Below, piece after piece: positions 45,340 through 64,000 of a stretch of DNA of 64,000 nt (its first letter is position 1; the number at the start of each line of letters is the position of its first letter). The position numbers were made by a program, and so were the translations under genes. Below the pieces are notes generated by a model, which searched no databases, was not told the DNA's origin, and saw nothing but the letters and a program-made list of their open reading frames with translations. Origin of the DNA: Arthrobacter castelli DSM 16402 (lineage in GTDB: Bacteria > Actinomycetota > Actinomycetes > Actinomycetales > Micrococcaceae); contig NZ_AUMN01000023.1 of the NCBI RefSeq assembly GCF_000430705.1, positions 1 through 64,000 on the forward strand. Reading direction: 5' to 3'.

Positions 45340-45490
45340 CTGCGTGCTCCAATGGATAGACAATTCATTCTATCGCAGAATAATTGGAAATGATCCATCA
45401 AAATGGGTTTATCGTGACAGCGTGAGTGACCACGCCGTTGTCCACCGGCAGCGCCAAGACCAGTCGGTGTAACCGACTTCGGGCGACATC

Positions 45491-47028: not shown

Positions 47029-48456
47029 ATGACAGTTCTTGGAGTTGATGAATCGCGACGACCGAACGTTGTCTTAATCGTTTCCGACGATCACGGCTAT
47101 GCAGACCGTGAGCGACTCGGCGTTCATGAGAACGTGAGGACTCCTCGTCTCGATCAACTCGCCGCTGAAGGCGTGACGTGTACGGACGCATATGTCAGTG
47201 CCCCGATCTGTTCACCTTCACGAGCTGGCCTGCTCGCCGGCAGCTATCAGCAGCGCTGGGGAGCCCAATGGTTTGATAGTTCGGCCGTGCCTCCCGAAGA
47301 GTTCCCCACTATCGCGGAACTTTTTCGCCAGGAACAGTACGCTACTGGATATTTTGGGAAGGTTCACTATGGAAACGAGCGCGACGGCGATCGAGGTGCT
47401 CCTCCTGAGCATGGTTTTGATGAATCTCTCTACGGACTCGCGGGGCAATCTATGGGTCGTTTGCATTATCTGCTCCATTCGTCGGAAGCTGCCCACCAGA
47501 TGGGCGAGGAGGCAAGCGCTGTTCATGGTGTAGATGCCCTGTGGGAAGGGAACGGCACGAAAACTAGGCCGGCTGACGCTGACGGTTTTTTGACTGAAGT
47601 CCTCGGTGAGCGCGCGCGTCGCTTCATAACTGAGCATCAGCACGAGCCCTTCTTCACTTACATTGCGTTCAACGCGGTTCATAATTTTACGTGGCAACTG
47701 CCGGAAGATGAGCTTGAAAAGCGTGGATTACCGAAGCATGAGGACTGGTATCCGGGAACGGCAGACTATGTCGATTGGTACGACGGTGCTGTTTCACCGA
47801 ATCTGCCCCATGGCCGTGACTACTATCTCGCACAGCTGGAACTTATGGATCTGGAGATCGGCAGAATCATCGATCAAGTTGATGCCCTTGGGTTGGGCCG
47901 CGATACTTTGTTCATATATTTGACCGACAACGGCGGCAGTATGTGCAATTACGGGTCGAATGAGCCGCTGCGAGGGTCAAAGTACACTCTGTTTGAGGGT
48001 GGTATCCGAGTTCCCTTCATCGCACGGTGGAAAGGAGAGCTGCCGGCTGGGGGCATCCATGACGGGTTGGTCAGTGCCCTGGATATCCTTCCAACCGCCC
48101 TGGCCGCAACGCGTGCAGAGCCTTCGACTTATGAAAATGTGGATGGCCAGGACCAGATGCCATTTCTCCGTGGTGAGCAGCACGGCTCACCTCATACAGA
48201 GCTGCACTGGGACTGTGGCTGGTCTTGGGCTGTACGGTACGGGGTTTGGAAGCTGATCTTCACTGAGACCAATGGTGAAGTAGCGGAGGCCCTACGGAAA
48301 ATCGAGCACACAGAAGTTCCAGAACAACTCGTGCTCACGAACCTCTCCCAAGACATTTCCGAACAAACAAACCTTGCTTCGCAGTATCCTGAGTTGGTCG
48401 CGGAACTCACAACCTTACACCAACAGTGGAAATCCCGCTTCAAGGTTCGCGATTGA
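47029..48456 (+). CDS. Sulfatase (formylglycine, Cys-type), cytoplasmic
   Basis: A 475-residue arylsulfatase-family enzyme that removes a sulfate ester, probably from a sugar. The active-site motif ICSPSRAGLLAG has Cys61 in CxPSR, which is converted to formylglycine by a generating enzyme not present in this window. Metal ligands are seen in VSDDHGY (Asp20, Asp21) and LTDNGG. No signal peptide is present, so it acts in the cytoplasm or leaves by another route. It is convergent with the aldolase-kinase genes of the amino-sugar pathway. The ATG has AGAAGGG upstream. Confidence 0.92.
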   Translation: MTVLGVDESRRPNVVLIVSDDHGYADRERLGVHENVRTPRLDQLAAEGVTCTDAYVSAPICSPSRAGLLAGSYQQRWGAQWFDSSAVPPEEFPTIAELFRQEQYATGYFGKVHYGNERDGDRGAPPEHGFDESLYGLAGQSMGRLHYLLHSSEAAHQMGEEASAVHGVDALWEGNGTKTRPADADGFLTEVLGERARRFITEHQHEPFFTYIAFNAVHNFTWQLPEDELEKRGLPKHEDWYPGTADYVDWYDGAVSPNLPHGRDYYLAQLELMDLEIGRIIDQVDALGLGRDTLFIYLTDNGGSMCNYGSNEPLRGSKYTLFEGGIRVPFIARWKGELPAGGIHDGLVSALDILPTALAATRAEPSTYENVDGQDQMPFLRGEQHGSPHTELHWDCGWSWAVRYGVWKLIFTETNGEVAEALRKIEHTEVPEQLVLTNLSQDISEQTNLASQYPELVAELTTLHQQWKSRFKVRD

Positions 48457-48477
48457 TCTTCCAATTTTCGGTCGAGC

Positions 48478-48499
48478 CCACCGGTCTAGTTCCCGGTGG
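48478..48499. terminator. Weak hairpin between convergent genes
   Basis: CCACCGG (48478-48484) pairs with CCGGTGG (48493-48499) across eight bases. There is no adjacent T-tract, so terminator function is only suggested by its place between the convergent sulfatase and aldolase genes. Confidence 0.4.
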
Positions 48500-48519
48500 C
48501 GCGGTAGAGGTTTGAATTG

Positions 48520-49362
48520 CTAGTTTCGCTTTTTTGCAAAGAGGGATAACAATCGGGCGACCTCAGGGACGATGGCCTCCCGTCCGGCGCCAAGATACTT
48601 ACGTGAATCGACTAGCGTGGGGTTGGTTTGAAGATGTTGACGCACAGAGCGTGTAAAGAAACCGTTTAAGTGGGTGGAAATATTGATTTTAGTCATTCCC
48701 GCCGCAAGAGCGTCGAGAATGTCTTCATCTGCAACGCCTGAAGATCCGTGGAGGACCAGCGGGACGTTTAATCTGCCGCGCAACTCAGATATTAACCCTA
48801 GGTTAAGTGTTGCACTTCGTTCTGTCATTGCGTGTGAAGAACCAACGGCAACGGCGAGGGCGTCGACACCTGTCGAAGCCACGAAATCGGCCGCTTCCGC
48901 GGGATCTGTGCTTACTCCGGGGGCGTGCGGGCCTTCTTTGCCGCCCACCTCGCCCAGTTCGGCCTCTACATAGACTCCTCGAGCATGAGCGTATTCACTA
49001 ACACGTATAGTGGCAGTTACATTGGCCTGGTAGTCCAAGCTCGCTCCGTCATACATAATCGACCCGAACCCGAGGTCGACGGCCTCCAGCGCAAGCCGTT
49101 CGTCCTCGACATGGTCGAGATGGAGGGCCACAGGCACACCGGCTCGTCGAGCGGCGGACATCGAGGCAAGAGCCAGTGGTTCTAATCCACCGTGATACTT
49201 AACGCAGTTCTCAGAAATCTGCAATATAACTGGTAGGGCCGCCATCTCCGCGCCAGCGATTAGTCCCTCAAGGGTCTCCAAATGAATGATATTGAACGCT
49301 CCCAGACCGGTACCTGCGTCCACTGCTTCGTTCATTAAATCTCTCGTGGATGTCAGGGGCAT
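48520..49362 (-). CDS. Class II ketose-bisphosphate aldolase (tagatose/fructose type)
   Basis: A 280-residue zinc aldolase of the FBA class II family. Seen are the zinc-ligand motif LHLDHVEDE, GFGSIMYDGASL, VEAELGEVGG and LHGSSGVADEDI. It would split tagatose-1,6-bisphosphate into glycerone phosphate and glyceraldehyde 3-phosphate. Specificity between tagatose and fructose bisphosphate cannot be read directly; tagatose is inferred from the neighbours. It overlaps the PfkB kinase gene by ten bases and is the last gene of the leftward catabolic operon. Confidence 0.9.
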   Translation of the reverse strand: MPLTSTRDLMNEAVDAGTGLGAFNIIHLETLEGLIAGAEMAALPVILQISENCVKYHGGLEPLALASMSAARRAGVPVALHLDHVEDERLALEAVDLGFGSIMYDGASLDYQANVTATIRVSEYAHARGVYVEAELGEVGGKEGPHAPGVSTDPAEAADFVASTGVDALAVAVGSSHAMTERSATLNLGLISELRGRLNVPLVLHGSSGVADEDILDALAAGMTKINISTHLNGFFTRSVRQHLQTNPTLVDSRKYLGAGREAIVPEVARLLSLFAKKRN

Positions 49363-50342
49363 GGAGATTTCTCCTTAGTGATAACCAACTGTTGTTGAAG
49401 CTCCATATAGTTTTGTGAAATTTCTCCTGCTCGCGGCATCAGCACCGCTGCAGCTGACCACGCCGTGGCGGTGCACAGTATTTGCTCCACGTTTTCGACG
49501 CCCGAAGCCAAGGCTGCGGAAGCCGCTGCGACGGATGCATCGCCGGCGCCAGTCGGGTTCCCATGCAGTGGACGCGGCAGCCGGGCGTGCCAGTAGTGCT
49601 GGCGAGCTTCAGATGTGAAAGCCAACATTCCCTCTGCCCCCATGCTGACCAAGACACGGTGGGCACCGAGTTCAATGAGTTTCTGTGCAGCGCTGCACAG
49701 ATCCGTCTCTCCCATGGCTTCGACCAATTCATGGCTGTTCGGCTTTAACAGGTCAGCTCCGGCTCGTGCAGCATCAATGAGCTGTTGGCCGGAGGTGTCA
49801 ATGATCGCGAACATCTGGTGGGCATGCGCCAACTTGACCAGCATTGGGTAGAAATCAACCGGAGCGTTGGGGGGAAGACTGCCGCAGCCCACGAGCACAC
49901 CTGGATTGGAGCCTCTTTCGGCAGGATTCTCCAACATACCGACGATGGCCGATCTCAAAGCCTGCCATTCTTTCTCATTCAGCGCTGCACCAGACTCATT
50001 CAAGATACTAGTTTGATCATTGACTGTGTCGACCAAAGCAATCGTTCGTCGCGTTTGCTCTTGGATAGGGACCAAAATGTGCGGGATTCCACTGAGTTCA
50101 AGATCAGCACGAATTTGAGACCTGGGAGTGTCCTCAACAGGTGCTATTGCCAGTACGCGGTGGCCCATGTGGTGAGCTACTCGTCCCACATTCAGTCCTT
50201 TGCCGCCAGCGCGATTCAGCGGATTGGGCACCCGGTGGCTCTGCCCAAGCTGAAGGTCATCGATCTGGTATGTGACATCTATGGCGGGATTGGGCGTCAC
50301 GGTAATGATGTCGAGGGCACGGTTCGTTGACGACGATCTCAT
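49353..50342 (-). CDS. PfkB-family sugar-phosphate kinase (1-phosphofructokinase/tagatose-6-P kinase type)
   Basis: A 329-residue ribokinase-fold kinase. The N-terminal ITVTPNPAIDVTYQIDDL and RAGGKGLNVGRVAHHMG, and the C-terminal anion-hole motif GNPTGAGDASVAAASAA with the catalytic Asp, place it with LacC/FruK-type kinases. In this context it would phosphorylate tagatose-6-phosphate to the 1,6-bisphosphate. Its ATG overlaps the ROK kinase stop (ATGA), and its 3' end overlaps the aldolase gene, so the order kinase-aldolase matches the pathway. Confidence 0.9.
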   Translation of the reverse strand: MRSSSTNRALDIITVTPNPAIDVTYQIDDLQLGQSHRVPNPLNRAGGKGLNVGRVAHHMGHRVLAIAPVEDTPRSQIRADLELSGIPHILVPIQEQTRRTIALVDTVNDQTSILNESGAALNEKEWQALRSAIVGMLENPAERGSNPGVLVGCGSLPPNAPVDFYPMLVKLAHAHQMFAIIDTSGQQLIDAARAGADLLKPNSHELVEAMGETDLCSAAQKLIELGAHRVLVSMGAEGMLAFTSEARQHYWHARLPRPLHGNPTGAGDASVAAASAALASGVENVEQILCTATAWSAAAVLMPRAGEISQNYMELQQQLVITKEKSPCP

Positions 50343-51286
50343 CCGGACCGTCCAGTACTGCAGTGCAGACGTTTCTCCATCTCACGTGTTCTTAGGGCTG
50401 CGCCGATAAGACCGGCCTCTTGACCGAGCATGGCCGGGATAATGCGCGGACGCCGTTGGCACCCAAGAAGCTCATTTGTTTTGCGTCGCAGTGGAACAAA
50501 TAGGGCGTCGTCGGCGCGTGAGAGCCCTCCCCCAATAACGATTATCTCCGAGCCCAGCGTGGAAACACACTGAGCAATACTGAACCCCAGTGCGTCTATG
50601 GCCTCGTTCCAAACTTGACGTGCATGCTGCGCCCCGTTCTTGGCCAACCGCAGTACCTCACGAGCGCCGTCCACTTGATCGCCGGTTATCAGCGTGTACC
50701 TGGCCGCAATCGCACCAGCTGACCCAACAGCCTCCAATATGGTCATTTCTCCGGGCCGCTTTGGATCCGGTACAAGGGAGTGGCCCAGCTCTCCAGCATA
50801 ACCATCACCGGTGAGCCGGTGGCCATCGCAAAAAAGGGCACCGGCGATGCCGGTACCGACCACCATTACGACGGCTTGCTTTGCATGCTGGGCTGCGCCG
50901 ATCCGAAATTCGGCATCGCCGGCGGCGCGAACGTCGTGTCCGAAAACTACCGGCATTCCCAGCCGCGTTCGTGCCCGCGTTGCAAAGGGGAAGTCCTTCC
51001 AGCCGAGATTTGCCGAATACTTACCTACTCCTGCGGCCTCATCCACGAGCCCGGGTACGACGAGTCCTATTGCATCGAAGGGATGATCGGGGTATCGCAC
51101 CTGGTAAGACTGCACGAGAGCACAAACTGCGTCGAGCAGCGCTTCGCCCGGATTAGTAGGGTCACGAGGTGAAGCCAGCCGCTGCAAGCCGATAATACGA
51201 TTGGAGGGCAAAATGATGCCGACCTTCATGTCCGTTCCACCGACATCGAGGGCCAGCACGGCTGAATTACCCATCCAGGAACGCAT
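50339..51286 (-). CDS. ROK-family sugar kinase lacking the zinc-cysteine motif
   Basis: A 315-residue ROK-family kinase with the ATP-binding LALDVGGTDMKVGII and a likely catalytic Asp in FGHDVRAAGDAE. GTGIAGALFCDGH and AGELGHSLVPD are also typical. Canonical ROK proteins then have the zinc site CxCGxxGCxE; here the segment reads KRPGEMTILEAVGSAGAIAA, with no cysteines. It would phosphorylate a hexosamine such as N-acetylgalactosamine at C6. It starts ten bases after the SIS gene and overlaps the PfkB gene by ATGA. A start at 51274 (MGNSAVLALD) is also possible. Confidence 0.88.
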   Translation of the reverse strand: MRSWMGNSAVLALDVGGTDMKVGIILPSNRIIGLQRLASPRDPTNPGEALLDAVCALVQSYQVRYPDHPFDAIGLVVPGLVDEAAGVGKYSANLGWKDFPFATRARTRLGMPVVFGHDVRAAGDAEFRIGAAQHAKQAVVMVVGTGIAGALFCDGHRLTGDGYAGELGHSLVPDPKRPGEMTILEAVGSAGAIAARYTLITGDQVDGAREVLRLAKNGAQHARQVWNEAIDALGFSIAQCVSTLGSEIIVIGGGLSRADDALFVPLRRKTNELLGCQRRPRIIPAMLGQEAGLIGAALRTREMEKRLHCSTGRSG

Positions 51287-51296
51287 GCTCAGTCAC

Positions 51297-52214
51297 CTAT
51301 GCGTCCAGAATAACTGAGCGGGCAAGATTACGTGGTTGATCGGGATCGAGTCCCCGTGCACGGGCACGCTCCAGCGACACTTTCTGTGCGCGCACTAGTT
51401 CCGCCAGCGGAGCAGAATTACGGTGGATGTACAGTGCGCCTGTCCTGGTAACATCGGTGCCCAAGTCACTCGATTCTTCACCAAAAAGCCACGTAACACG
51501 GCCCGGGCCGGCAATAGCTATAGGCCCGTGGCGATATTCCATCGCGGGATAGGATTCGGTCCACGATTGCGATGCTTCACGCATTTTCAGCGCGGCTTCG
51601 TGGGCGAGGCCGATAGTCCAGCCGCGCCCCAGGAAACTGAATTGCTCCGCGTCGATGAGTTCCTGGGGCACCGGTTCAGCCACGGCGGTGCGAGCGTCAG
51701 CAATGACCGGGCCCACATCATAGCCCATTGCCGACTGTAGGTATAGCAATGTAGTCGTAGCGAAACGCGTTTGCACCACGGATTGCTCATCGGCGTATGG
51801 AAGTTCCACGACAGTATCCGCTATTTCCGTGAGTGGTGAAGCCGCATCACCCACTATGGCACCAGTGCGTACCTCCCCCTTAAGGTCTGTTAGAGTTTCG
51901 AGCACCTCGGTCGTGGTGCCGGAACGGGTAATGGCCAGAACCTTGTCGTAGTCCCTGTTGATAAAGGCTTCAGAGGCAGTGAATGCGTCAGTAACTCCCA
52001 GCCCCATAGATTCACGCATAGAGGCATAGGACTGGGCCATGAACCATGAAGTGCCGCAGCCAATAACTGCGACCTTCTGACCATTCAAAGGAAGCAGGTC
52101 CTCGGCTTCGCTCATTGCCTCACGGATGGCACGCTCCCATATCTCGGGCTGGGACGATAACTCGGCGTCCATGTGGAATCCAAGATCAGATAAATTGCCA
52201 TGTGGGTCGTTCAT
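51297..52214 (-). CDS. SIS-domain sugar isomerase/deaminase (AgaS/GlmS-C-like)
   Basis: A 305-residue protein with two SIS domains, like the isomerase half of GlmS. Motifs are AVIGCGTSWFMAQSYASM, ITRSGTTTEVLETL and the second-domain FLGRGWTIGLAHEAALKMRE with SYPAMEYRHGP. AgaS-type members convert galactosamine-6-phosphate to tagatose-6-phosphate with loss of ammonia, which fits the PfkB and aldolase genes downstream. It is the first gene of the four-gene leftward operon and follows the DeoR gene by 72 bases. GGAG lies seven bases before the ATG. Confidence 0.9.
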   Translation of the reverse strand: MNDPHGNLSDLGFHMDAELSSQPEIWERAIREAMSEAEDLLPLNGQKVAVIGCGTSWFMAQSYASMRESMGLGVTDAFTASEAFINRDYDKVLAITRSGTTTEVLETLTDLKGEVRTGAIVGDAASPLTEIADTVVELPYADEQSVVQTRFATTTLLYLQSAMGYDVGPVIADARTAVAEPVPQELIDAEQFSFLGRGWTIGLAHEAALKMREASQSWTESYPAMEYRHGPIAIAGPGRVTWLFGEESSDLGTDVTRTGALYIHRNSAPLAELVRAQKVSLERARARGLDPDQPRNLARSVILDA

Positions 52215-52286
52215 GAAAGGTTCTCCGTTTCAAAGGGATACGAATTATTGATATGCTCCACTTTTGCGATTCGTTGGCTGCACACC

Positions 52287-53246
52287 TCATGGTGAATTGC
52301 TCGTTGCGACGATTACATCGACCTCCCATGACCGCAGTTCACGCGCAAAAGCATCATCCACGCCGGAATCGGTGACCAATGTGTCAATTTGTGACCAGTC
52401 GCAAACCCTCACAAGGGACCGATGCCCCATCTTCTCTGACGTCGCTACGACGACAACACGCTCGGCGCGCTTTACCATTGCCGAATTAATTTCAGCCTCG
52501 CCATCATGATGTGCCGAAACGCCCCCTCTCAGCGTCAGTCCATCGACGCCTAATATGAGGACGTCGATCCAAAGTTCCTGAAGGACCAGTTTGGCGAGAG
52601 GCCCGACTTGCTCGTAGGAGTTCGGGCGTGCGACACCACCGAGAGTGACAGTACGAATATGCGGTCGAAGAACCAACTCTGTCGCGATATTCAGTGCATT
52701 GGTCACCACCGTTAGAGCTGGACGATCTGCCCGGTCGGCCAAATCGGACCGGAGCCCCAACTGTCGGGCTGTCGCCGACGTCGTCGTCCCGCCGTTCAAG
52801 GCTACAACGCTACACGCGGGGACAAGTCGGCTTGCAGTCGTGGCAACCTGTTGCTTCGCACGACTGACGTCACCATCTCTGTACTGAACCGGAAGGTCGT
52901 AAGCGCCTGCGGTAGCGACGACACCACCGTGAGTACGGGTTACCAATTGCTGAGCTGCCAAAGCTGTGAAATCTCGGCGAATAGTCGCCGGCGACACCGA
53001 CAAGGCCTCCGAGGCTCCCGCGACCGTCAATTGACCTCTGTCTGAAAGCAAGCCGAGGAGAGCCTGCCAGCGTTGTGGCCTACCAAACGAACCGTCCATG
53101 TAAATATTCTGGCCACCCTCGGTCGTGCCCGCTGGCGAAGATGACGGCTTAGCGACTACTTCATCACTAGTCATCAGACTCTCATTCTCCTCGACTACCC
53201 CGTCCCCGGGGAACAACTTGGATGATGCCACCTTCAGCTGCATCAT
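52287..53246 (-). CDS. DeoR/GlpR-family transcriptional regulator
   Basis: A 319-residue regulator. The DeoR helix-turn-helix lies at about residues 57-110 (RWQALLGLLSDRGQLTV, SVSPATIRRDFTALAAQQLV, THGGVV). The sugar-phosphate-sensing domain follows with VALNGGTTTSATARQL and ILGVDGLTLRGGVSAHHDGEAEIN. The first 50 residues are an unconserved extension; in-frame ATGs at 53174 and 53099 could be the real start. It sits between the leftward pathway operon and the rightward sulfatase-transporter operon and probably represses both until a sugar phosphate appears. Confidence 0.88.
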   Translation of the reverse strand: MMQLKVASSKLFPGDGVVEENESLMTSDEVVAKPSSSPAGTTEGGQNIYMDGSFGRPQRWQALLGLLSDRGQLTVAGASEALSVSPATIRRDFTALAAQQLVTRTHGGVVATAGAYDLPVQYRDGDVSRAKQQVATTASRLVPACSVVALNGGTTTSATARQLGLRSDLADRADRPALTVVTNALNIATELVLRPHIRTVTLGGVARPNSYEQVGPLAKLVLQELWIDVLILGVDGLTLRGGVSAHHDGEAEINSAMVKRAERVVVVATSEKMGHRSLVRVCDWSQIDTLVTDSGVDDAFARELRSWEVDVIVATSNSP

Positions 53247-53294
53247 TGAAACCGCTCCACTCTAGACTTTCACATTTGATTAGTATAAGCGTTG

Positions 53295-53312
53295 TTCGAG
53301 CAGTTTCGAGCA
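53295..53312. promoter_or_regulatory. Direct repeat TTCGAGCA, candidate DeoR site
   Basis: TTCGAGCA occurs at 53295-53302 and 53305-53312, exactly one helical turn apart, in the gap between the DeoR gene and the divergent sulfatase. DeoR-type repressors often bind short direct repeats. No other strong motif was seen in this gap. Confidence 0.4.
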
Positions 53313-53462
53313 TTGACAGTCAGAAAGCGCGCATATAGCGTTTGATCGTAAACCGGGGGTCGAAGTCGTAAGTTCCGGTTGTACTGGAAGTGCCAATGCT
53401 TCCCGGACGCTGGTGTCTTCGTGGGGAACTGATGAAGCACATAACTCGAATGGGAGTTCATC

Positions 53463-54941
53463 GTGGAACGTCCAAACATTGTTTTGATTTGCGTTGACCA
53501 GTGGCGCGGTGACGCTTTGTCTGCGGCAGGCCACCCAAGAGTGCACACTCCCTATCTGGACCAGCTGGCAGCCGTGGGCACACGATTCAGTCGTGCCTAC
53601 TCGGCTACTCCAACATGCGTCCCGGCGCGGGTAGCGCTAATGACTGGACAGTCACAAGAAGCGCACGGACGGGTTGGCTATAGCGACGGCGTCAGTTTTG
53701 ACGAGGCACATCCGGTGACTATGCCGCGCGAGCTACGGAATGCCGGCTATCAGACTCAGGCGATTGGCAAGATGCATGTCTACCCGGAACGCTCGCGAAT
53801 TGGCTTCGACGATGTCCGGCTGCACGATGGGTACCTGCATTACTCACGACGCCGCCACGACCGGGACCTGCGCCAGATCGACGATTACCTACCCTGGTTG
53901 CAAGCACAGGCCGGAGTGTCGGCCATCGAGGACTATACCGACCATGGACTGAGCTGCAATTCCGTGGTCGCGCGTCCGTGGGACAAGGGCGAGGCATTAC
54001 ACCCCACGAACTGGGTTTCAACCGAGGCTATCTCGTGGCTGTACCGTCGCGATCCGACCGTACCGTTTTTCCTGTACCTCTCCTTTCACCGACCGCACTC
54101 ACCGCTCGATCCGCCCCAATGGGCCTTCGACCAATATCTCAACAGACCCCCACGGGAGCGGATCGTGGGGGACTGGACCGACGCGTATGAGACGCATCGG
54201 CGTGACGGTGCCCATGATGCCTTCTTCGGACGGCAAGATGAATGGACCCACCACCGCGCTACTGCCGGCTATTACGGGCATCTCTCCCACATTGATCAAC
54301 AAATCAATCGGTTTCTGGAAGCGCTGTGGGAGATGCGCCTCCGGGAAAATACAGTCGTCATCTTCACCTCTGATCACGGCGACATGATGGGGGACCATGA
54401 CATGTATCGGAAGGGCTTTCCATACGAGGGGTCAGCACACATTCCCTTTATCATGTCGGTGCCGGAGGGATACGGCGAGCGTGGCACAGTGGTGGACGAA
54501 GTCGTTGAGCTCCGCGACATCATGCCAACCCTGCTCGACATGGCCGCGGCACCCATTCCAGAGTCCGTAGACGGTGAAAGTCTTACCCCCTTTCTACGTG
54601 GAGATAGTTCTGTCTCCTGGCGCAAAGACTTGCACGGCGAACACACTTTGCTGGGGCAGTCGCTGCAGTGGGTGACAGACGGCAAGGCAAAGTTCGTTTG
54701 GATGTCGGGGGAGGGACAGGAGCAGTTCTTCGATTTGGTTAACGACCCAAACGAGACCGTGAACCTGATCGAGGATCCATCCTGGAGCGTCGAATCTGGA
54801 AAGTGGCGCCAGCGGCTCATTGACCATCTTAGGGACAGAGAAGAGGGGTACGTGAAAGACAACCGCCTCGTCATCGGGCAGCAACCGGCCACCATGCTGT
54901 CACACGTAGAAGACAACTTGAAAGTTGCGGGATCGTCATGA
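53463..54941 (+). CDS. Sulfatase (formylglycine, Cys-type), cytoplasmic
   Basis: A 492-residue arylsulfatase-family enzyme with the active-site motif TCVPARVALMTG, where Cys52 lies in CxPAR. Metal ligands are at the N-terminus (ICVDQWRGDAL) and in FTSDHGDMMGDHDMYRKG. The pattern resembles choline- and heparan/chondroitin-sulfatase-like enzymes. It has no signal peptide, so sulfate is probably removed after uptake. A GTG start at 53463 is supported by GGGAG six bases upstream. The stop overlaps the solute-binding protein start (ATGA), so desulfation and uptake are co-expressed. Confidence 0.92.
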   Translation: MERPNIVLICVDQWRGDALSAAGHPRVHTPYLDQLAAVGTRFSRAYSATPTCVPARVALMTGQSQEAHGRVGYSDGVSFDEAHPVTMPRELRNAGYQTQAIGKMHVYPERSRIGFDDVRLHDGYLHYSRRRHDRDLRQIDDYLPWLQAQAGVSAIEDYTDHGLSCNSVVARPWDKGEALHPTNWVSTEAISWLYRRDPTVPFFLYLSFHRPHSPLDPPQWAFDQYLNRPPRERIVGDWTDAYETHRRDGAHDAFFGRQDEWTHHRATAGYYGHLSHIDQQINRFLEALWEMRLRENTVVIFTSDHGDMMGDHDMYRKGFPYEGSAHIPFIMSVPEGYGERGTVVDEVVELRDIMPTLLDMAAAPIPESVDGESLTPFLRGDSSVSWRKDLHGEHTLLGQSLQWVTDGKAKFVWMSGEGQEQFFDLVNDPNETVNLIEDPSWSVESGKWRQRLIDHLRDREEGYVKDNRLVIGQQPATMLSHVEDNLKVAGSS

Positions 54942-56215
54942 GTTCCACTCTGAACCGAAGAACATTCTTAAGCACGGCCGCAATCGCCGCCATGGGTGCT
55001 AGCGCCGCAGGATGTTCCAACCCTAAACCTGGAGGAGGGCCGGGAGGCTCGCTGGCATATACGTTTTGGGATCCGAACTTTATGGAGTCGAGCACAAAGC
55101 TTATTTCAAAATTTGAGGCGAAGAACCCGAAAATCGACGTAGAAATAGCGCAAATTCCCATCACCCAGTATTGGACACGGCTTCAAACCACATTTACGGG
55201 TGGGAACGCGCCTGACATAGTTACGATGAACGGGCCAAATTTTCAACTGTACGCGTCAAATGACAAATTGATGCCGCTTGACAGAAGGATCGCTTCCGAC
55301 GACGTAAATCTCGCAAAGTATCCGTCGAATTTGAACGAACTCTACACTTACGAGAATACTCAGTACGCTATTCCCATCAACTTTTCCACCATCGCTCTTT
55401 GGTACAACAAGAACCTCTTTGACGATGCCGGGGTCGCGTATCCGAACGAAGCATGGACTTGGGACGACCTGAAGGACGCTGCGGAAAGAATCACCGATCA
55501 ACGCAGGGGAATTTATGGGATATCACCTGGAAGCCCAATTTCAATGGCGCAGGAGAACTACTACAACACGATCCTTCAAGCCGGCGGATATATAATTTCC
55601 GATGACGGCCGACACTCGGGGTTCGACGACAAGCGGTCTATTGAAGGACTTAAATTTTGGCGGGACTTCATGAAGGAAGGAGTATCGCCCTCATACGCGC
55701 GAATCTCCGAAACCGACCCCACACAAATGTTCCAGAGCGGACAAGTCGCGATGTACTACGGTGGCTCCTGGCGGGCTCCGCAGTGGCGACAAGCGAATAT
55801 GGACGCCGTTGATCTTGCGCTCCTGCCAAGTGGGCCGGTAGGGCGTCAGTGCACGGTCCACGGGATGTCATATGCGGTTGCGGCTGGCTCGGCAAACCCT
55901 CACGATGCATGGAACCTTCTGAAGTTTCTAACCAACCAAGAATCACAGGCGCTGTTCGCGCGAGCAGGCATATTGATCCCTGCCCACGCTGACAGTCAAA
56001 ATATCTGGCTTGAATCGATGCCGGAATACAATCTCAATGCGTTTATCGAAATGCTTGACCATGCTATGCCTTATCCCGTTTCAGAGAACACGCAAACCTG
56101 GCAGACTCAAGCCATCGAAATACTTGCTCAAGCATGGGCCGGACACGAGTCCATGGAAACGGCAGCAGAAGAGCTGGCCGCGAAAATGAACGAATCGCTG
56201 GCAGTGGAAGAATAA
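54938..56215 (+). CDS. ABC transporter solute-binding lipoprotein (sugar type)
   Basis: A 425-residue family-1 extracellular solute-binding protein. The signal has a twin-arginine motif (NRRTFL) and a lipobox ending in Cys26 (ASAAGC), so it is probably exported by Tat and lipid-anchored. Typical parts are LAYTFWDPNF, VEIAQIPITQYWTRLQ, APDIVTMNGPNF and AYP-NEAWTWDDL. It would capture a sulfated oligosaccharide for the two permeases behind it. The first ATG overlaps the sulfatase stop. It is more AT-rich than the central region of the window. Confidence 0.93.
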   Translation: MSSTLNRRTFLSTAAIAAMGASAAGCSNPKPGGGPGGSLAYTFWDPNFMESSTKLISKFEAKNPKIDVEIAQIPITQYWTRLQTTFTGGNAPDIVTMNGPNFQLYASNDKLMPLDRRIASDDVNLAKYPSNLNELYTYENTQYAIPINFSTIALWYNKNLFDDAGVAYPNEAWTWDDLKDAAERITDQRRGIYGISPGSPISMAQENYYNTILQAGGYIISDDGRHSGFDDKRSIEGLKFWRDFMKEGVSPSYARISETDPTQMFQSGQVAMYYGGSWRAPQWRQANMDAVDLALLPSGPVGRQCTVHGMSYAVAAGSANPHDAWNLLKFLTNQESQALFARAGILIPAHADSQNIWLESMPEYNLNAFIEMLDHAMPYPVSENTQTWQTQAIEILAQAWAGHESMETAAEELAAKMNESLAVEE

Positions 56216-56228
56216 GGCGGAATAGCCG

Positions 56229-57170
56229 ATGACGACTGAGACTCAAGTAACTGTTCCGCGGAATTTAAGTCTTGTAACAGCGAAAGGTCGCAAACGTAAG
56301 AAACGAGACACGCTTGCTGCGATCATTTTTATTGGACCAATGACGCTGGGACTTAGTATATTCTATCTGTGGCCCCTCGTACGTACCTTCTTTTTATCGT
56401 TCACTAAATGGGGAGCGTTCGGGGGGACGGAATTTACTGGCCTGGAGAACTACGAGCGCCTTATTAACGATTCGGATGTATGGCAGGCGTTACTCGTTTC
56501 ATTCGGGTACACGGGCATCGTGCTTCTCGGCATCCCGGTGGCTATCGTAATGGCAGTCTTGCTCAATCAAAAAAACCTAAAGTGGCTGACAGGCTACCGA
56601 GTGCTGTTCTTCCTGCCAGTCGTCACGATGCCAGTTGCAGCAGCCTTAGTATGGCGCCTGCTATACAACGGCCGGTACGGCGCAATCAATTACATCCTGA
56701 GCTGGTTTGGAATCGATGGTCCTAGCTGGCTTACCCAACCAGGACTCGCGTTGGTAGCTATCGGAATCGTCGGGGTGTGGCTTCTGCTCGGACAACAAAT
56801 CATCATATTGTTGGCCGGACTTCAGGGGGTGCCTCGGACCCTTCTTGAATCAAGCGCTATTGACGGTGCCAACGCGGTCCAACGGTTTCGCTATGTGACT
56901 CTTCCGCTGCTGACTCCATCGATTTTCTTCGTTGTCGTAATTACAGTGATCGGTTGCTTACAGATGTTCGACCTTGTCTTTGTGATGCTCGAGCCCGGTA
57001 ACCCTGCATTGGCGAGCACAAAAACGATTGTATACTATTTTTATCAAGTCGGTTTTGTCTATAACGACCGAGGCTACGCGGCAGCTATAGCGTTCCTTCT
57101 AATGGTCATTATTTTCATTTTGACGGCGCTTCAGTTCCGTTTGCAAAAACGATGGGTGCATTATGAGTAG
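56229..57170 (+). CDS. Sugar ABC transporter permease (MalF-like)
   Basis: A 313-residue inner-membrane permease with about six helices. It opens with the typical FIGPMTLGLSIFYLWPLVRT and has the EAA-loop sequence ESSAIDGANAVQRFRYVTLP that contacts the ATPase. It forms a heterodimer with the next gene product. It starts 13 bases behind the binding-protein gene and overlaps the next permease by eight bases. No ATPase gene is present in the cluster, so it probably uses a shared MsiK/MsmK-type ATPase encoded elsewhere. Confidence 0.93.
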   Translation: MTTETQVTVPRNLSLVTAKGRKRKKRDTLAAIIFIGPMTLGLSIFYLWPLVRTFFLSFTKWGAFGGTEFTGLENYERLINDSDVWQALLVSFGYTGIVLLGIPVAIVMAVLLNQKNLKWLTGYRVLFFLPVVTMPVAAALVWRLLYNGRYGAINYILSWFGIDGPSWLTQPGLALVAIGIVGVWLLLGQQIIILLAGLQGVPRTLLESSAIDGANAVQRFRYVTLPLLTPSIFFVVVITVIGCLQMFDLVFVMLEPGNPALASTKTIVYYFYQVGFVYNDRGYAAAIAFLLMVIIFILTALQFRLQKRWVHYE

Positions 57171-58020
57171 AAAGCCAGAGCGTACGGATGGCGTGGAACG
57201 GAAGTTCACTAAACCGAAATATTTAGTGCATCTGACTTTACTGGTTGCCGTCATCGTGATGATTTCGCCGTATTTGTGGCAGCTGGCGACGTCGCTGAAA
57301 ACCTTTGAAGAATCTGTTCAGGTTCCGCCGACAACTATCCCGGATGATTTCTACTTCGAAAACTACTCGACGATCTTTGAAGTAATCCCATTTGCTTCGA
57401 TGATGGGTACAACGATCGCGATGACTGTGGGCCGGATCATCGGTCAGTTGGTTGTCATCACATTAGCTGCCTATGGCTTTGCTCGCTTTGAATTCCCAGG
57501 CAAGAACCTGATTTTCCTTGTGTTTCTATCGGTGATGATGGTGCCAGACGAGCTTCTAATTATCCCCCAATATGAGATCATCCAGTCTCTGGGATGGCTC
57601 GACACTTTGCCTGCGTTAATCGTTCCCCGTATTTTCTGGGTGTTTGGGCTTTTCTTGTTGCGGCAGTTCTTTCTTACGTTGCCATTGGAGATTGAGGAGG
57701 CGGCCAGAATTGATGGCGCGGGACGTTTTCGAACCTTTTGGTCGGTGGTCTTGCCTTTGGCGAAGCCGGGGATGATCACGTTAGCGATCTTTTCATGCTT
57801 GTTCTCTTGGAAGGAGCTGCTTTGGCCGCTTATCGTGATGAGCTCTCCCGACAAAATGCCGGTTTCAGTGGGTCTGGCTACCCTGCGTGGTTCATTCTTT
57901 GTCGACTATCCGGTATTGATGGCCGGCTCTACACTGGCAATGTTGCCGCTAATTCTGGTGTTCATTTTCTTGCAGCGGCATTTCATCGAGGGCATTGCAA
58001 CGACCGGCGGTAAGGCGTGA
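57163..58020 (+). CDS. Sugar ABC transporter permease (MalG-like)
   Basis: A 285-residue permease with six helices. It has SLKTFEESVQVPPTTIPDDF before helix 2, and the EAA loop EEAARIDGAGRFRTFWSVVL. It ends in FLQRHFIEGIATTGGKA, the usual MalG-type end. It pairs with the preceding permease to import the cluster substrate. The GH20-like gene follows after 111 bases that hold no other feature. Confidence 0.93.
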   Translation: MSRKPERTDGVERKFTKPKYLVHLTLLVAVIVMISPYLWQLATSLKTFEESVQVPPTTIPDDFYFENYSTIFEVIPFASMMGTTIAMTVGRIIGQLVVITLAAYGFARFEFPGKNLIFLVFLSVMMVPDELLIIPQYEIIQSLGWLDTLPALIVPRIFWVFGLFLLRQFFLTLPLEIEEAARIDGAGRFRTFWSVVLPLAKPGMITLAIFSCLFSWKELLWPLIVMSSPDKMPVSVGLATLRGSFFVDYPVLMAGSTLAMLPLILVFIFLQRHFIEGIATTGGKA

Positions 58021-58131
58021 GAGGGGCTTCGTGGTTTTTGTTCAGTTGTGTTCGGGCCACTTCCAATGCCCGGGCTGAAAGCGCAGCAAAAATGCGCGGT
58101 CTACAACCATGACTAACTGATCGGAATCCCC

Positions 58132-59943
58132 TTGTCTGTAGCAGATGTTCTATTTCCTAAACCGCGCTGGTACAAGGAACATGAAGAGGCAGGCCCCACA
58201 GCTCATACTCCATTGATTGTCGAGGTCGACAAGGCGCTACCTTCGGAGGGCTTTCGGCTGCAGACCAACCGGACACGCATTCGCCTTCAGTACCGGGACA
58301 GCAGGGGCCTTCGCTACGGGCAGCGAGCGCTTGAGCAGATGCGCTCGATGGGTGACTTTTCGAGTGTGTCTGTCAGTGTTGAGGATTGGCCAGATTTTGC
58401 AGTTCGTGGTTGCATGCTGGATGTCAGTCGAGATCGGGTGCCAACCCGGCGAACGCTGATTCGACTCATCGATCTGTTGTCGCTTGCGCGTATCAACCAA
58501 TTTGAGCTCTATACCGAGCATACGTTCGCTTACGCTGGACACGATGTTGTTTGGGAGCAAGCGTCGCCACTCACTGTCGATGACATTCACTGGCTTGATG
58601 ACCAGTGTGCTGCACGGGATATCGACCTGGTGGCAAACCAAAACACATTAGGACACATGGAACGGTGGCTTAAGCATGAGCCGTATCGGCACCGGGCCGA
58701 ACAGAGGGCCGGGTTTGTACGGTTGGGAAAACACCATGAGGCCAGCACCCTTGCACCTACGAGGGAGAATGCTGATTTTGTTGTAGGACTACTCGAAGAA
58801 CTGTTGCCGCTGTTCCGAACCAAGCGCGTGAATATCGGGGCTGACGAGCCATGGGAGCTCGGTCTGGGCGATAGCGCTGCTGAAGTAGCTAGTCGGGGTC
58901 TGGCGGCTGTCTATTTCGATTACGTTTCCTGGATTGTCCGTCCCTGGACAGAGCGTGGATACCAGGTCGAATTTTGGGCGGACATTTTCGGTGAACATCC
59001 CGAACTCATGGGGCAGGTCCCCGCTGGGGCGATTCCGATCGTGTGGCAGTATGACTCCCCGTCGCTTACCCGCGACGCTTTTGAGCGGGCTTCTGATGAA
59101 CAACGTGCACGCTGGTCGAGCATCGGTCTCGATGTTGAAGGATTACAACTAGGGTTCCGCGGCAGTGCCCGAGTGTTGACCGAGGCAGGCGAGAATTTTT
59201 GGGTCGCGCCCGGCACCGGCACATGGCACTCATTTACGGGACGTATAGACAACGCTGTCGAAAACATGATTGACGCTGCAGAGATAGGTCTGGATTACTC
59301 GGCTGGCGGGTATATCAACACGATCTGGGGTGACAATGGCATGTATGATCCCCCTTCCGTCTGGTTCGGACCCGCGCTCTTCGGTGGAGCAGTGAGTTGG
59401 TGTCTCGACACTAACCGTGAGCTGGACATAGCTGAGGTGCTTAACGCCCACGTGGTCATGGATCCTTCGGGCATTCTAGGCCGAGTTCTCGTGGAAATCG
59501 GACGTGCAGCGAGGGCGCTCGATGCCCCACTGCTCAATGGCAGCCAGCTCTTTACGGTGTTGAATGAAGGCGGTGACCTTGTCGAAGGGGAGTGGCCGGA
59601 TGTGGCGGGTATCGAGAATGCCGATAGTATCCTCACGCAATGTCTGCAGGATCTTGATTGCGCGGAGCCGGCAGCTCTCGATGGCAGCGTGATGATGAGT
59701 GAAACAAGACAGGCGATTATGTTCGCCCGGTTCGGAGCTGATCTACTACGCCTACGCCCTGGAGGTATACACGTATTGCCACCGCGACGAGCCCAAGCCT
59801 TACTGAATCGACTCGACTCGCTGCTTGAAGGGCACCGCCAGACGTGGCTGCTTCGCAGTCGCCCCGGTGGTCTCGATGACAGCGTGGCGAGAATGGGGGC
59901 ACTCCGCCGTGTTTTGGTGTCAAAGGCGACCATGTCCCCGTGA
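58132..59943 (+). CDS. GH20-like beta-N-acetylhexosaminidase, cytoplasmic
   Basis: A 603-residue glycosidase. An N-terminal domain (about 1-90) ends with the GH20-typical FRLQT and GLRYGQRALEQM segments. The barrel begins at AVRGCMLDVSRDRVPT (residues 90-104). The catalytic Asp238-Glu239 pair lies in VNIGADEPWELG, a variant of the HxGxDE motif with N in the first position. GH20 enzymes release N-acetylglucosamine or N-acetylgalactosamine by substrate-assisted catalysis. No signal peptide is present, so it acts on imported oligosaccharides. It starts with TTG at 58132 (MSVADVLFPKP), with a weak ribosome site, and the exact start is uncertain. Confidence 0.8.
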   Translation: MSVADVLFPKPRWYKEHEEAGPTAHTPLIVEVDKALPSEGFRLQTNRTRIRLQYRDSRGLRYGQRALEQMRSMGDFSSVSVSVEDWPDFAVRGCMLDVSRDRVPTRRTLIRLIDLLSLARINQFELYTEHTFAYAGHDVVWEQASPLTVDDIHWLDDQCAARDIDLVANQNTLGHMERWLKHEPYRHRAEQRAGFVRLGKHHEASTLAPTRENADFVVGLLEELLPLFRTKRVNIGADEPWELGLGDSAAEVASRGLAAVYFDYVSWIVRPWTERGYQVEFWADIFGEHPELMGQVPAGAIPIVWQYDSPSLTRDAFERASDEQRARWSSIGLDVEGLQLGFRGSARVLTEAGENFWVAPGTGTWHSFTGRIDNAVENMIDAAEIGLDYSAGGYINTIWGDNGMYDPPSVWFGPALFGGAVSWCLDTNRELDIAEVLNAHVVMDPSGILGRVLVEIGRAARALDAPLLNGSQLFTVLNEGGDLVEGEWPDVAGIENADSILTQCLQDLDCAEPAALDGSVMMSETRQAIMFARFGADLLRLRPGGIHVLPPRRAQALLNRLDSLLEGHRQTWLLRSRPGGLDDSVARMGALRRVLVSKATMSP

Positions 59944-60088
59944 GCGAATCAAACAAAGTTTCCTAACCCCGCAACATCGGATGGAAGGTTCCGATAGGTG
60001 CAGACGTTCGTCGGCAGCCCATGCGCTGCGCTACGTCAACATGACAACGATTTGGTGACAAGCAGGATGCGATTCTAGGAGAAGCCCA

Positions 60089-61306
60089 TTGGTCAGCAGC
60101 AGGACAGACTTACGTCTCGGCGTTATCGGGTTGGGTGCACGGCATCAGCTTGCATCATTAGCGCATAACCCCGGCAATGGTTCGCGCATTGTCGCAGTCT
60201 GTGATCCCATCACAGCTCGTCGGGAGAGCGCTAGGAAGACCTTCGGAAACGATCTCGTGATGGCATCTAATCATCGAGATCTCCTCAACATCCGGCTTGA
60301 CGGTGTCTTCATCATTACCCCGGATGCGACGCATGCGGAACTGGCCATTGATTTCCTCCAAAGCGGCATCGCGGTATATATCGAGAAGCCGCTGGCGATT
60401 ACCACTGATGAGGCTGACCGAGTGCTCCAAACGGCGCAGTCCAGCGGCACGCCGCTCTATGTCGGCCACAATATGCGTTATATGCCTTTCACGCGCTTAA
60501 TGCGCGACGTCATTAGCAAAGGTGATATCGGTGAGGTGAAATCCATTTGGTGCCGGCACTTCGTCGGCCATGGCGGCGACTACTACTTTAAAGATTGGCA
60601 CGCGGAGCGAAGCAAAGTTACCAGCCTGCTCCTACAAAAAGGCGCTCATGACATCGATATAATCCATTGGCTCGCTGGTGGATACACCAATCGGCTTAGC
60701 GCCTTCGGGAACCTTTCTGTCTATGGACAGATCGAGGACAGATCCGATCGCAGCAGCCAGGTCATGCAAGATTGGTTTAGTGAGAGCAATTGGCCACCGC
60801 TCGCCCAGCAGGGTTTGAACCCGCTAATTGACGTTGAAGATCTCAGCGTAGTAAATCTTCAACTTGATAATAACATCATTGCAACGTACCAGCAGTGCCA
60901 CTTCACCCCCGACTACTGGCGCAATTACACTGTTATCGGCACTGAGGGACGGCTGGAAAATTTTGGTGACGACAAAGACGCGACCATTAAAGTTTGGAAC
61001 CGCCGTTCCAACTATCGGGCAGAGGGAGACAAGGAGCTGGCAGTTTCGGAGGAATCTGGTACACACGGTGGTTCCGACCGACGCATCATCACCGAGTTTT
61101 TAGATTTCCTGCGTGGCGGGTCACGCACCGAGACCTCGCCGGTTGCCGCGCGCTATGCTGTCGCCACTGGTGTTGCAGCAACAGAGTCATTACGCGCTGG
61201 CGGGACCGTGGTCACGGTGCCGCACTTAGCCCCGGAATTGAATAGTTACTTTGAATGCATTCAAAAGACGGATCAGATAAAAGATCGTTTCAAGCGAAAT
61301 TCATAG
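60089..61306 (+). CDS. Gfo/Idh/MocA-family oxidoreductase
   Basis: A 405-residue NAD(P)-dependent oxidoreductase. The Rossmann motif RLGVIGLGARHQLASLA is at the N-terminus, and the conserved YIEKPLAIT lies near residue 97. The C-terminal alpha/beta domain contains HNMRYMPFTRLMRDV and LLLQKGAHDIDIIHWLAGG. Members oxidise sugars or sugar derivatives, or act as NAD-dependent glycosidases. It is the last gene of the rightward sulfatase-ABC-GH20 group. A TTG start at 60089 has AGGAG seven bases upstream. The 145-base gap before it has no other feature. Confidence 0.9.
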   Translation: MVSSRTDLRLGVIGLGARHQLASLAHNPGNGSRIVAVCDPITARRESARKTFGNDLVMASNHRDLLNIRLDGVFIITPDATHAELAIDFLQSGIAVYIEKPLAITTDEADRVLQTAQSSGTPLYVGHNMRYMPFTRLMRDVISKGDIGEVKSIWCRHFVGHGGDYYFKDWHAERSKVTSLLLQKGAHDIDIIHWLAGGYTNRLSAFGNLSVYGQIEDRSDRSSQVMQDWFSESNWPPLAQQGLNPLIDVEDLSVVNLQLDNNIIATYQQCHFTPDYWRNYTVIGTEGRLENFGDDKDATIKVWNRRSNYRAEGDKELAVSEESGTHGGSDRRIITEFLDFLRGGSRTETSPVAARYAVATGVAATESLRAGGTVVTVPHLAPELNSYFECIQKTDQIKDRFKRNS

Positions 61307-61653
61307 GCGACAGCACCGGTGTCGAGGTGGGCTACTAGGACAACCGCCAGGCTAAGATGAGGTTTGTACACGAAGCTGCCACTGTCCTGTACATGATCAG
61401 AGACGCGGCGCCAACGGGTCCGCTCTGCTATGGGAAGCACGACTTTAGAGAGCTCCTCCGGCCATTCCGGTCCGCCGAAAACTATTGCTTCAAGATCGAG
61501 TGCATTCGCAAGGTTCGAGGCAGCTCGTCCGAATGCACGACCAACTGACTCCAGCAACTCTCGGCAGAACCGGTTCCGGACTCCGCAAGTTCCGAGAGCC
61601 GGGCGATGGCCGCTGCCACTTCGATCGGGTCTTTCGTGCTCACGGAGTGCCAC
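61300..61653 (-). pseudogene. ROK-family protein, C-terminal remnant
   Basis: The minus strand carries LESVGRAFGRAASNLANALD and LEAIVFGGPEW, the C-terminal signature of ROK repressors or kinases, then HLDTGAVA in place of the usual DAGALGAA. The N-terminal two thirds are missing, and upstream similarity (STKDPIEVAAAIARL) is in another frame. The fragment overlaps the 3' end of the preceding oxidoreductase gene slightly. Confidence 0.6.
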
Positions 61654-63340: not shown

Positions 63341-63651
63341 TAAAGAACTGTCTCCTCGTTGCCGTACAGGAAGGTGACGCCGCCAGTAGCGAAGTTGTCG
63401 ACGTCGGCCGCGGCGGCTTGGCCTTCATCAGAGGTGAGGACGGCGTCCATGGATTTTTCGTCGGCCGCGTACAGGTCTGCGATGAGATGGACCGCTGGCG
63501 CCATATCGCCGTCCTGCTGTCCTACCCACGTCAATGTCCACCGGGTGAGACCGCGCATTCGTTTTGCGATGGGGATATGGACCTCCCTGTAGTAATGGTC
63601 AAAGGCTTGTAGATCAGTTGGAGTGCCGTACAGAATACTGACTCGATACAT
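63340..63651 (-). CDS. EthD-family small protein
   Basis: A 103-residue dimeric alpha-beta-barrel protein. MYRVSILYGTPTDLQAFDHY and the YREVHIPIAKRMRGLTRW segment are typical of the EthD family. EthD-like proteins accompany degradation genes, but their biochemical role is mostly unknown. It lies directly between the PEP-hydrolase-like gene (no gap) and the oxidoreductase gene (one-base overlap), so the three are translated together. Confidence 0.85.
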   Translation of the reverse strand: MYRVSILYGTPTDLQAFDHYYREVHIPIAKRMRGLTRWTLTWVGQQDGDMAPAVHLIADLYAADEKSMDAVLTSDEGQAAAADVDNFATGGVTFLYGNEETVL

Positions 63652-64000
63652 TCAGCTGTCGCCTTTCGAACGAGATGCCGCGCCGTTCTGCGGTTGGTTG
63701 CGGGTAGAGAGGTCGACAAAGCGCCGCATGCGGTCCACCATCGCGACCTCGGTCGGTAACCGCTCCATGCTGGAGGCGCCTAAAAAGCCGTGTACTCCTG
63801 CGACATTCGACAGAATATACTCGGCGTCTTCAGGTCCAGCGATGGGCCCGCCGTGACAGAGCACTGTTGCGTTCGGGTTGTGGTGTGCGATGACTTTCTG
63901 CAGCTCCGACACCCGCATCGCGGCGTCGTCCAATGTCATAGCGGTTTGGGCGCCGATCATGCCGGACGTGGTCAGTCCCATGTGGGGGACAAGTATGTCT
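63652..64000 (-). CDS. PEP-hydrolase-like TIM-barrel protein (partial, runs off the right edge)
   Basis: The last 116 residues of a TIM-barrel protein of the phosphoenolpyruvate hydrolase-like family are visible. Recognisable are VPHMGLTTSGMIGA, VLCHGGPIAGPEDAEYIL and VAGVHGFLGASSMERLPTE. The start lies beyond base 64000. Genes of this type are often found with a UPF0261 (Tm-1-like) gene, which would be expected just outside the window. The frame is open to the edge. Confidence 0.85.
   Translation of the reverse strand, partial: DILVPHMGLTTSGMIGAQTAMTLDDAAMRVSELQKVIAHHNPNATVLCHGGPIAGPEDAEYILSNVAGVHGFLGASSMERLPTEVAMVDRMRRFVDLSTRNQPQNGAASRSKGDS

Follow-up and report, generated by a model that had tools for sequence, protein, structure and literature searches.

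Results

Gene content of the cluster

The DNA analysed here (the window) is a 64,000-nucleotide stretch of Arthrobacter castelli DSM 16402, corresponding to contig C22 of a 4.59-Mb, 49-contig genome. A cluster combining two sulfatase genes with genes for sugar import, a glycosidase and amino-sugar breakdown was confirmed at positions 47029-61306, and every gene named in an earlier reading made from the letters alone (hereafter the sequence-only reading) was recovered at its coordinates. The genes are the following (ABC, ATP-binding cassette; Tat, twin-arginine translocation; GalNAc, N-acetylgalactosamine; locus and contig numbers are those of our collection).

47029-48456, plus strand: sulfatase 1, S1 type (PF00884, 164 bits; core C61-S-P-S-R; no visible signal peptide)
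48520-49362, minus strand: class II ketose-bisphosphate aldolase (PF01116), putative tagatose-1,6-bisphosphate aldolase
49353-50342, minus strand: PfkB-type hexose-phosphate kinase (TIGR03168, 246 bits), putative tagatose-6-phosphate kinase
50339-51286, minus strand: ROK sugar kinase, putative GalNAc kinase
51297-52214, minus strand: SIS-domain amino-sugar-phosphate deaminase/isomerase, putative AgaS role
52287-53246, minus strand: DeoR-family regulator, nearest to the AgaR model (NF040755)
53463-54941, plus strand: sulfatase 2, S1 type (PF00884, 173 bits; NF010322, 673.6 bits; core C52-V-P-A-R; no visible signal peptide)
54938-56215, plus strand: sugar-binding lipoprotein with a Tat-type signal (RRTFL start and AAGC lipobox, seen by eye)
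56229-57170, plus strand: CUT1-type ABC permease 1 (49-51% identical to a permease of loci L107, L159 and L161)
57163-58020, plus strand: CUT1-type ABC permease 2 (43-46% identical to a permease of the same three loci)
58132-59943, plus strand: GH20 beta-N-acetylhexosaminidase, predicted GH20C type, no visible signal (PF00728, 43.7 bits, cut-off 22.3; predicted fold)
60089-61306, plus strand: Gfo/Idh/MocA dehydrogenase (match in 10 of 100 cassette flanks, see below)

The aldolase, PfkB, ROK, SIS and DeoR genes form a block on the minus strand, from which a plus-strand run diverges with sulfatase 2, the binding protein, the two permeases, the GH20 enzyme and the Gfo/Idh protein; sulfatase 1 lies on the plus strand, beyond the aldolase gene. 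Sulfatase 2 is the first gene of this run and overlaps the binding-protein gene; the proposed linkage of sulfatase and hexosaminidase genes to an ABC importer was borne out. The same is true of the proposal that two Cys-type sulfatases and a GH20-like hexosaminidase lack signal peptides. Both sulfatases keep the CxPxR core together with metal-site residues (D20-D21 and D300-N301 in sulfatase 1, D12 and D304-H305 in sulfatase 2), and no signal peptide was seen by eye in either of them, 12 and 4 residues respectively preceding the first core strand. The GH20 N-terminus likewise has no hydrophobic leader by eye and resembles those of 14 of its 15 relatives, the archaeal one (L055) being shorter; the start codons of these relatives were chosen by script. 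Apart from the membrane permeases, no product of the cluster other than the binding protein shows a visible export signal. We consider it probable that the cluster is a regulon for the catabolism of a short sulfated glycan that carries a beta-linked GalNAc-type residue. This glycan would be imported whole, desulfated in the cytosol and then degraded as an amino sugar. Both the import-then-desulfate order and the GalNAc/tagatose-type route are supported by co-occurrence and linkage of the genes in related genomes and by the GH20C-like fold of the glycosidase, as detailed below.

The sulfatases

PF00884 matches at 12 places in the A. castelli genome, and no signal peptide was seen by eye in any of the 12 N-termini (0/12), nor in the two strong formylglycine enzymes of this genome. 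Because all 12 sulfatases look signal-less, cytosolic desulfation looks like a general habit of the organism rather than a feature special to the cluster, as far as inspection of N-termini can tell. The sequence-only reading had held the arrangement to be notable on the ground that most known bacterial glycan sulfatases are exported; this argument is weak, as cytosolic desulfation has been published, also for Arthrobacter (PMC10972148). A second sulfatase-rich region is present on contig C29 (L026, L027), with four sulfatases, two of which are 80% identical, a formylglycine enzyme and a xylulokinase-like FGGY kinase.

The distribution of the two sulfatases was compared with that of the SIS gene in 395 genomes taken as the family Micrococcaceae (E 1e-90 for sulfatase 2, 1e-70 for sulfatase 1 and 1e-30 for SIS; scoring was limited to the first few candidates of each genome, so that misses are possible). 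Close relatives of sulfatase 2 (57-79% identity for full-length matches) were found in 31 other genomes and those of sulfatase 1 (53-61%) in 20, spread over six and four genera, respectively, besides that of A. castelli; all of these genomes (31/31 and 20/20) carry the SIS gene. Fisher P values for the co-occurrence are 2e-19 for sulfatase 2 and 2e-12 for sulfatase 1, with the 395 genomes treated as one set and kinship uncorrected. These values overstate independence, because 16 of the 18 genomes with both sulfatases belong to one genus (g12). Sulfatase 2 lies within 25 kb of SIS in 5 of the 31 genomes and sulfatase 1 in 3 of the 20, for an expectation of about 1.2% per genome (start coordinates on the same contig, split contigs being counted as unlinked).

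These counts bear on the possibility that the sulfatases serve sulfur scavenging from aryl or choline sulfates and stand beside an amino-sugar operon by chance. Sulfatase 2 does pass the arylsulfatase equivalog model NF010322 (673.6 bits for a cut-off of 481, with sulfatase 1 falling short at 117.3 bits) and matches the broad Mn-dependent enzyme EfAS, and the 12 sulfatase places in the genome would suit such a role. However, the confinement of both sulfatases to SIS-bearing genomes and the eight cases of linkage within 25 kb make chance adjacency very improbable, and we retain amino-sugar catabolism as the probable setting of both enzymes.

The amino-sugar cassette

A SIS match is present in 111 of the 395 family genomes, A. 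castelli included. Among 113 SIS places outside its genome, 100 flanks were read (99 genomes, G747 contributing two; 10 of the 100 flanks are shorter than 19 kb because of a contig end; the plasmid loci L054 and L056 were not counted). SIS and the aldolase occur in all 100, ROK and PfkB in 99 each, the DeoR regulator in 94, a NagA-like gene in 13, Gfo/Idh in 10, a formylglycine enzyme in 9 and a sulfatase in 2. The best plasmid relatives of the window SIS protein are from Arthrobacter (67-69%), and on this basis the family genomes were taken as Micrococcaceae. The low number of sulfatases indicates that the cassette serves amino-sugar breakdown in general and receives sulfated sugars in some cases.

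The Gfo/Idh matches in the flanks (E 1e-10) comprise eight at 46-59% identity and two at 27-28%, and this protein probably belongs to the module as an accessory member. GH109 was considered as its family: the GH109 chain 6t2b scores 30 bits, and other Gfo/Idh chains, its nearest solved relatives, score up to 76 bits.

The sequence-only reading had assigned the cassette to the route from GalNAc to tagatose phosphate. The conserved four-gene block supports this assignment, but no Aga cut-off is passed: the SIS, ROK, DeoR and aldolase proteins fall below every curated NCBIfam cut-off and PfkB exceeds a broad one only (TIGR03168, hexose kinase, 246 bits for a cut-off of 216; 120 bits, below the cut-off, with the LacC model), and substrates are thus assigned from context. 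The DeoR regulator scores 165.2 bits with the AgaR repressor model NF040755, below its cut-off of 260, and a search of the intergenic stretches for its operator repeats gave nothing convincing. The route from glucosamine to fructose-6-phosphate needs no dedicated PfkB kinase or class II aldolase. A dedicated kinase and a class II aldolase following the deaminase therefore point to tagatose phosphates, and thus to galactosamine; on such pathway grounds the cassette would follow a GalNAc/tagatose-type route.

The GH20 enzyme

The structure of the GH20 protein was predicted from five sequences with a pLDDT (predicted local distance difference test) of 80.2 and a pTM (predicted template-modelling score) of 0.83. 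Its closest folds are those of pneumococcal GH20C, the top match (Foldseek E 8e-21, template-modelling score 0.66; VIA Z 27.6 over 508 residues, root-mean-square deviation 3.9), and GcnA, and then that of HEX-2 of T. suis (Z 24.8, 398 residues); sequence identity to GH20C is 16%. Eight residues (R100, D238, E239, W282, W305, Y307, W399 and D401) are identical in 16 of 16 aligned GH20 sequences and are the counterparts of the sugar-contact residues printed for GH20C, with the D238-E239 catalytic pair and the W-W-Y acetamido pocket present; R100, D238, E239 and W282 fall within the printed alignment, whereas W305, Y307, W399 and D401 were paired with their counterparts solely through motif and order. 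The window enzyme is thus predicted to be of GH20C type, the modelled fold agreeing over the whole chain. HEX-2 prefers beta-GalNAc, and GH20C has some bias towards beta-GalNAc and accepts N-acetylglucosamine (GlcNAc). In GH20C, D375 is in contact with O6 of both GlcNAc and GalNAc, and with O4 of GlcNAc (PMC11308363). As D375 corresponds to D401 here, a terminal sugar with a 6-sulfate (perhaps also one with a 4-sulfate) should be accommodated poorly, and that residue would probably be desulfated first.

Of the 396 genomes searched in the order, 28, with A. castelli among them, have a GH20 match; roughly half of these matches are short or distant, and long ones occur in 13 other genomes. In this sample the A. 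castelli genome holds the sole GH20 match within its family. The haloarchaeon Halomontanus rarus has a GH20 relative (33% identity, same mapped active-site residues) on a plasmid (L055, 2894-13088), near a sulfatase gene and three alpha-L-fucosidase genes.

The importer

Relatives of the binding protein, and GH123 genes, were searched in 37 genomes, which were chosen rather than drawn at random (A. castelli, the 31 with sulfatase 2 and five others). Binding-protein relatives (38-41%) occur in 4 of the 36 other genomes, G430, G411, G755 and G607; G599 has a weak relative (29%). The binding-protein gene of G430 and G755 is followed by two permease genes, GH123 and Gfo/Idh, in this order; GH123 lies on another contig in G607, and none was found in G411. 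As GH123, a beta-GalNAcase family, holds the place of GH20 behind a related importer, GalNAc is favoured as the sugar. Solved binding proteins were also tried as a guide to the substrate of the importer, and were set aside because the best matches were mixed and uninformative.

Related clusters and parts encoded elsewhere

G747 (L066, L165, L166) and G735 (L113, L163) each have one region with a formylglycine enzyme, a NagA-like gene (230 bits in L066, over the cut-off), the cassette, four sulfatases and a CUT1 importer, as well as a distant Gfo/Idh gene and a DUF2264 gene. A PL8 lyase gene lies near both clusters (by Pfam in L163, by eye in L166). In one of these sulfatases (L163), four metal-site residues and the core cysteine fall where those of the Arthrobacter sulfatase SulA1 are printed, with a shift of 2. 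In G432, sulfatase 2 (60%), a formylglycine enzyme, a CUT1-type permease, Gfo/Idh, a GH35 gene and the cassette lie within about 23 kb, and in G591, sulfatase 2, GH123, another GH20, a formylglycine enzyme and the cassette lie within about 28 kb. The CUT1-type permeases of the G747, G735 and G432 loci are less similar to those of the window. The conjugative plasmid p232 of Arthrobacter Rue61a carries a formylglycine enzyme, a sulfatase, the cassette and a sulfonate-type importer, and, 8.5 kb further, a short coding sequence annotated as hyaluronate lyase. At L054 (7478-11597) and L165 (809-4914), a sulfatase is paired with a NitT/TauT-like (sulfonate-type) ABC importer near a formylglycine enzyme; this is possibly a second importer type for sulfated sugars.

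The deacetylase, formylglycine enzyme and ABC ATPase that the sequence-only reading had listed as missing are indeed absent from the cluster, but a search of the genome located candidates for all three: formylglycine enzymes (PF03781) on C6 and C29 (276 and 272 bits), with a third, partial place on C3 (51 bits), one NagA-like deacetylase on C1, and MalK-type ATPases at two places, on C8 and C13.

Genomic surroundings

Directly upstream (35860-45363) are long genes resembling a conjugation ATPase (a very weak VirB4 match, 17 bits) and, by eye, a type IA topoisomerase. Together with a lower G+C content over the importer (0.495 at 56-58 kb), these genes hint that the cluster is mobile; megablast with window positions 35000-59000 gave no match among plasmids. 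Downstream, a ROK-regulator gene fragment (61350-61646, minus strand) is about 90% identical over 48 residues to a ROK regulator on contig C12 (L034, 4286-5557) that adjoins another ABC and sulfatase group. It is followed by a transposase remnant, seen by eye near 61.9-62.2 kb. Further on (62189-63999, minus strand) and at L031 (3652-5746), a second Gfo/Idh protein and a PRK02399 protein are encoded in a run of their own.

Discussion

In the mechanism that we propose, the lipoprotein would catch an intact sulfated oligosaccharide, which the two permeases would bring into the cell, powered by a shared MalK-type ATPase coded elsewhere. Formylglycine enzymes, also coded elsewhere, would mature both sulfatases, which would remove sulfate in the cytosol, and the GH20C-type enzyme would then free the non-reducing N-acetylhexosamine. 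ROK would phosphorylate GalNAc, a NagA-like enzyme coded outside the cluster would remove the acetate, SIS would deaminate and isomerise the product to tagatose-6-phosphate, PfkB would make the bisphosphate and the class II aldolase would split it; the DeoR protein is the probable regulator. We infer the substrate of each step, the order of the steps, the position of sulfation and a cargo shared by importer and sulfatases.

A number of observations weigh against this reading, and two alternatives draw on them. The first keeps the same logic with a GlcNAc-type substrate: sulfated GlcNAc glycans (keratan, mucin or heparan fragments) would be imported and desulfated, and SIS would make fructose-6-phosphate from glucosamine-6-phosphate. 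SIS is indeed nearer to GlmS and GlmD, which are glucosamine enzymes, than to AgaS (best NCBIfam scores 100 bits for GlmS-type, 75 for GlmD and 26 for the AgaS family model TIGR02815, whose cut-off is 529, all below the cut-offs; best PDB match 2dec), and no Aga-family model reaches its curated cut-off for any cassette protein. Sulfatase 2 is related to BT1918, a 3S-GlcNAc sulfatase of subfamily S1_46, its PDB matches are 9koq, a broad arylsulfatase, and 7oz8, a GlcNAc-3-sulfatase, and the acceptance of GlcNAc by GH20C would agree with such a substrate. However, a four-gene block with its own PfkB kinase and class II aldolase is conserved, which a route through fructose-6-phosphate would not need, and GH123 takes the glycosidase place behind a related importer in two genomes. 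We therefore regard a GlcNAc-type substrate as unlikely and a GalNAc-type residue as the probable one.

The second alternative separates the routes: an unsulfated oligosaccharide with beta-GalNAc or beta-GlcNAc would be the cargo of the importer and the substrate of GH20, and the sulfatases would act on another compound entering elsewhere, for example through a sulfonate-type ABC importer. Among the 31 other sulfatase 2 genomes, a close binding-protein relative is present in one only, G607 (39%, on other contigs), with the weak match in G599; G553, which has the closest sulfatase 2 (79%), has no binding-protein relative at E 1e-40. No sulfatase match lies beside the importer relatives in the stretches read of G411, G430 and G755. 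Sulfatase 1 or 2 matches occur in none of the 18 loci with GH20 relatives (0/18), a permease match occurring in 12 and ROK in 6. In Rue61a and G747 a sulfatase stands together with an importer of NitT/TauT type, and Arthrobacter SulA1 is described as active on free GalNAc4S (GalNAc 4-sulfate) and not on the oligosaccharides tested (PMC10972148). On the other side, sulfatase 2 heads the importer/GH20 run of the window and overlaps its next gene, and formylglycine enzyme, sulfatase and CUT1-type permeases share a locus in G747, G735 and G432, even if these permeases are less similar. Separate routes thus seem to us improbable, though less so than the other alternatives; import of an intact sulfated oligosaccharide, as the sequence-only reading proposed, agrees with the co-occurrence and linkage data and less well with the few sulfatase 2 genomes that have a binding-protein relative. 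This importer and these sulfatases may be paired in the window only.

The proposed source of the glycan, for example chondroitin or mucin, should be put more cautiously. PL8 genes lie beside the clusters of G747 and G735, but PL8 (PF02278) has no match in the A. castelli genome, nor in any of 14 control genomes (0/14); the model does match L163. Further points count against the preferred reading: GH123 was likewise not found in the A. castelli genome, its NagA candidate, at 208 bits, is below the cut-off of 225.65, just 2 of the 100 cassette flanks hold a sulfatase match, and the one listed genome of its genus, G398, lacks SIS as well as both sulfatases. Chondroitin as a substrate fits the relatives G747 and G735 better than A. 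castelli itself. A narrower version may be entertained, in which the cluster is devoted to degrading, in the cytosol, intact sulfated oligosaccharides that end in beta-GalNAc (sulfated LacdiNAc-like ends or those of chondroitin), with the two sulfatases obligatorily first because of the pocket aspartate at O4/O6, and with GH20 and GH123 interchanging behind related importers across Micrococcaceae; as a whole this version is rather doubtful.

How does the cluster compare with known systems? The aga/GalNAc pathway consists of AgaR, AgaS, a tagatose-6-phosphate kinase and the GatY/KbaY aldolase. By sequence the same kinds of enzyme are present here, but no member in the window passes an Aga cut-off, and a separate sugar kinase and ABC import are found. 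The sulfatase clusters of Bifidobacterium breve UCC2003 were reportedly described by Egan et al. in 2016. This actinobacterium has an intracellular sulfatase and grows on GlcNAc-6-sulfate; in contrast to the oligosaccharide proposed here, the substrate named for it is that sulfated monosaccharide (PMC7326374). SulA1 of the marine Arthrobacter MAT3885 is a signal-less S1 sulfatase, active on GalNAc4S among the substrates tested, for which a cytosolic role at the end of chondroitin breakdown was inferred by its authors (PMC10972148). It shares the lack of a signal with the window sulfatases, but belongs to a chondroitin lyase cluster, whereas the A. castelli genome has no PL8 match and the window adds an importer, GH20 and the cassette; the SulA1 positions, compared as printed residue positions rather than through the SulA1 sequence, are matched by the G735 sulfatase (L163) and not by those of the window. 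Streptobacillus moniliformis takes up sulfated glycosaminoglycan disaccharides by binding-protein-dependent ABC import and has a sulfatase predicted to be cytosolic; in contrast to the window, with its GH20 hexosaminidase and another cassette, it takes lyase products and has an unsaturated glucuronyl hydrolase (PMC5430744). Pneumococcal GH20C (SP_2141), the closest solved fold, binds GlcNAc and GalNAc, was found in the cell lysate and has an adjacent ROK gene; it differs by its 16% identity and by its company, N-glycan enzymes and no sulfatase being named alongside it in the sections consulted (PMC5215778, PMC11308363). The literature consulted also includes PMC9067506, PMC10154612, PMC10154620 and PMC12421950; PMC4252021 nowhere mentions a sulfatase. 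In the literature searched, to which most subscription journals do not belong, no prior description of this arrangement was found, SulA1 and the Streptobacillus system being the nearest. Novelty is limited, since publications already exist on a GalNAc-4-sulfatase of Arthrobacter that lacks a signal and on the uptake of sulfated glycosaminoglycan disaccharides by an ABC system, and since all 12 sulfatases of the A. castelli genome look signal-less.

In the literature consulted, the pathways for sulfated glycans described in most detail are those of Bacteroides, with periplasmic sulfatases. If the reading preferred here is true, a recurring actinobacterial scheme that combines cytosolic sulfatases and a formylglycine enzyme with a galactosamine-type cassette would reserve both the sulfate and the sugar for the cell that imports them. 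The scheme offers testable functions for two groups of sulfatases, for the SIS deaminase encoded in 111 of the 395 family genomes, and for the GH20 group.

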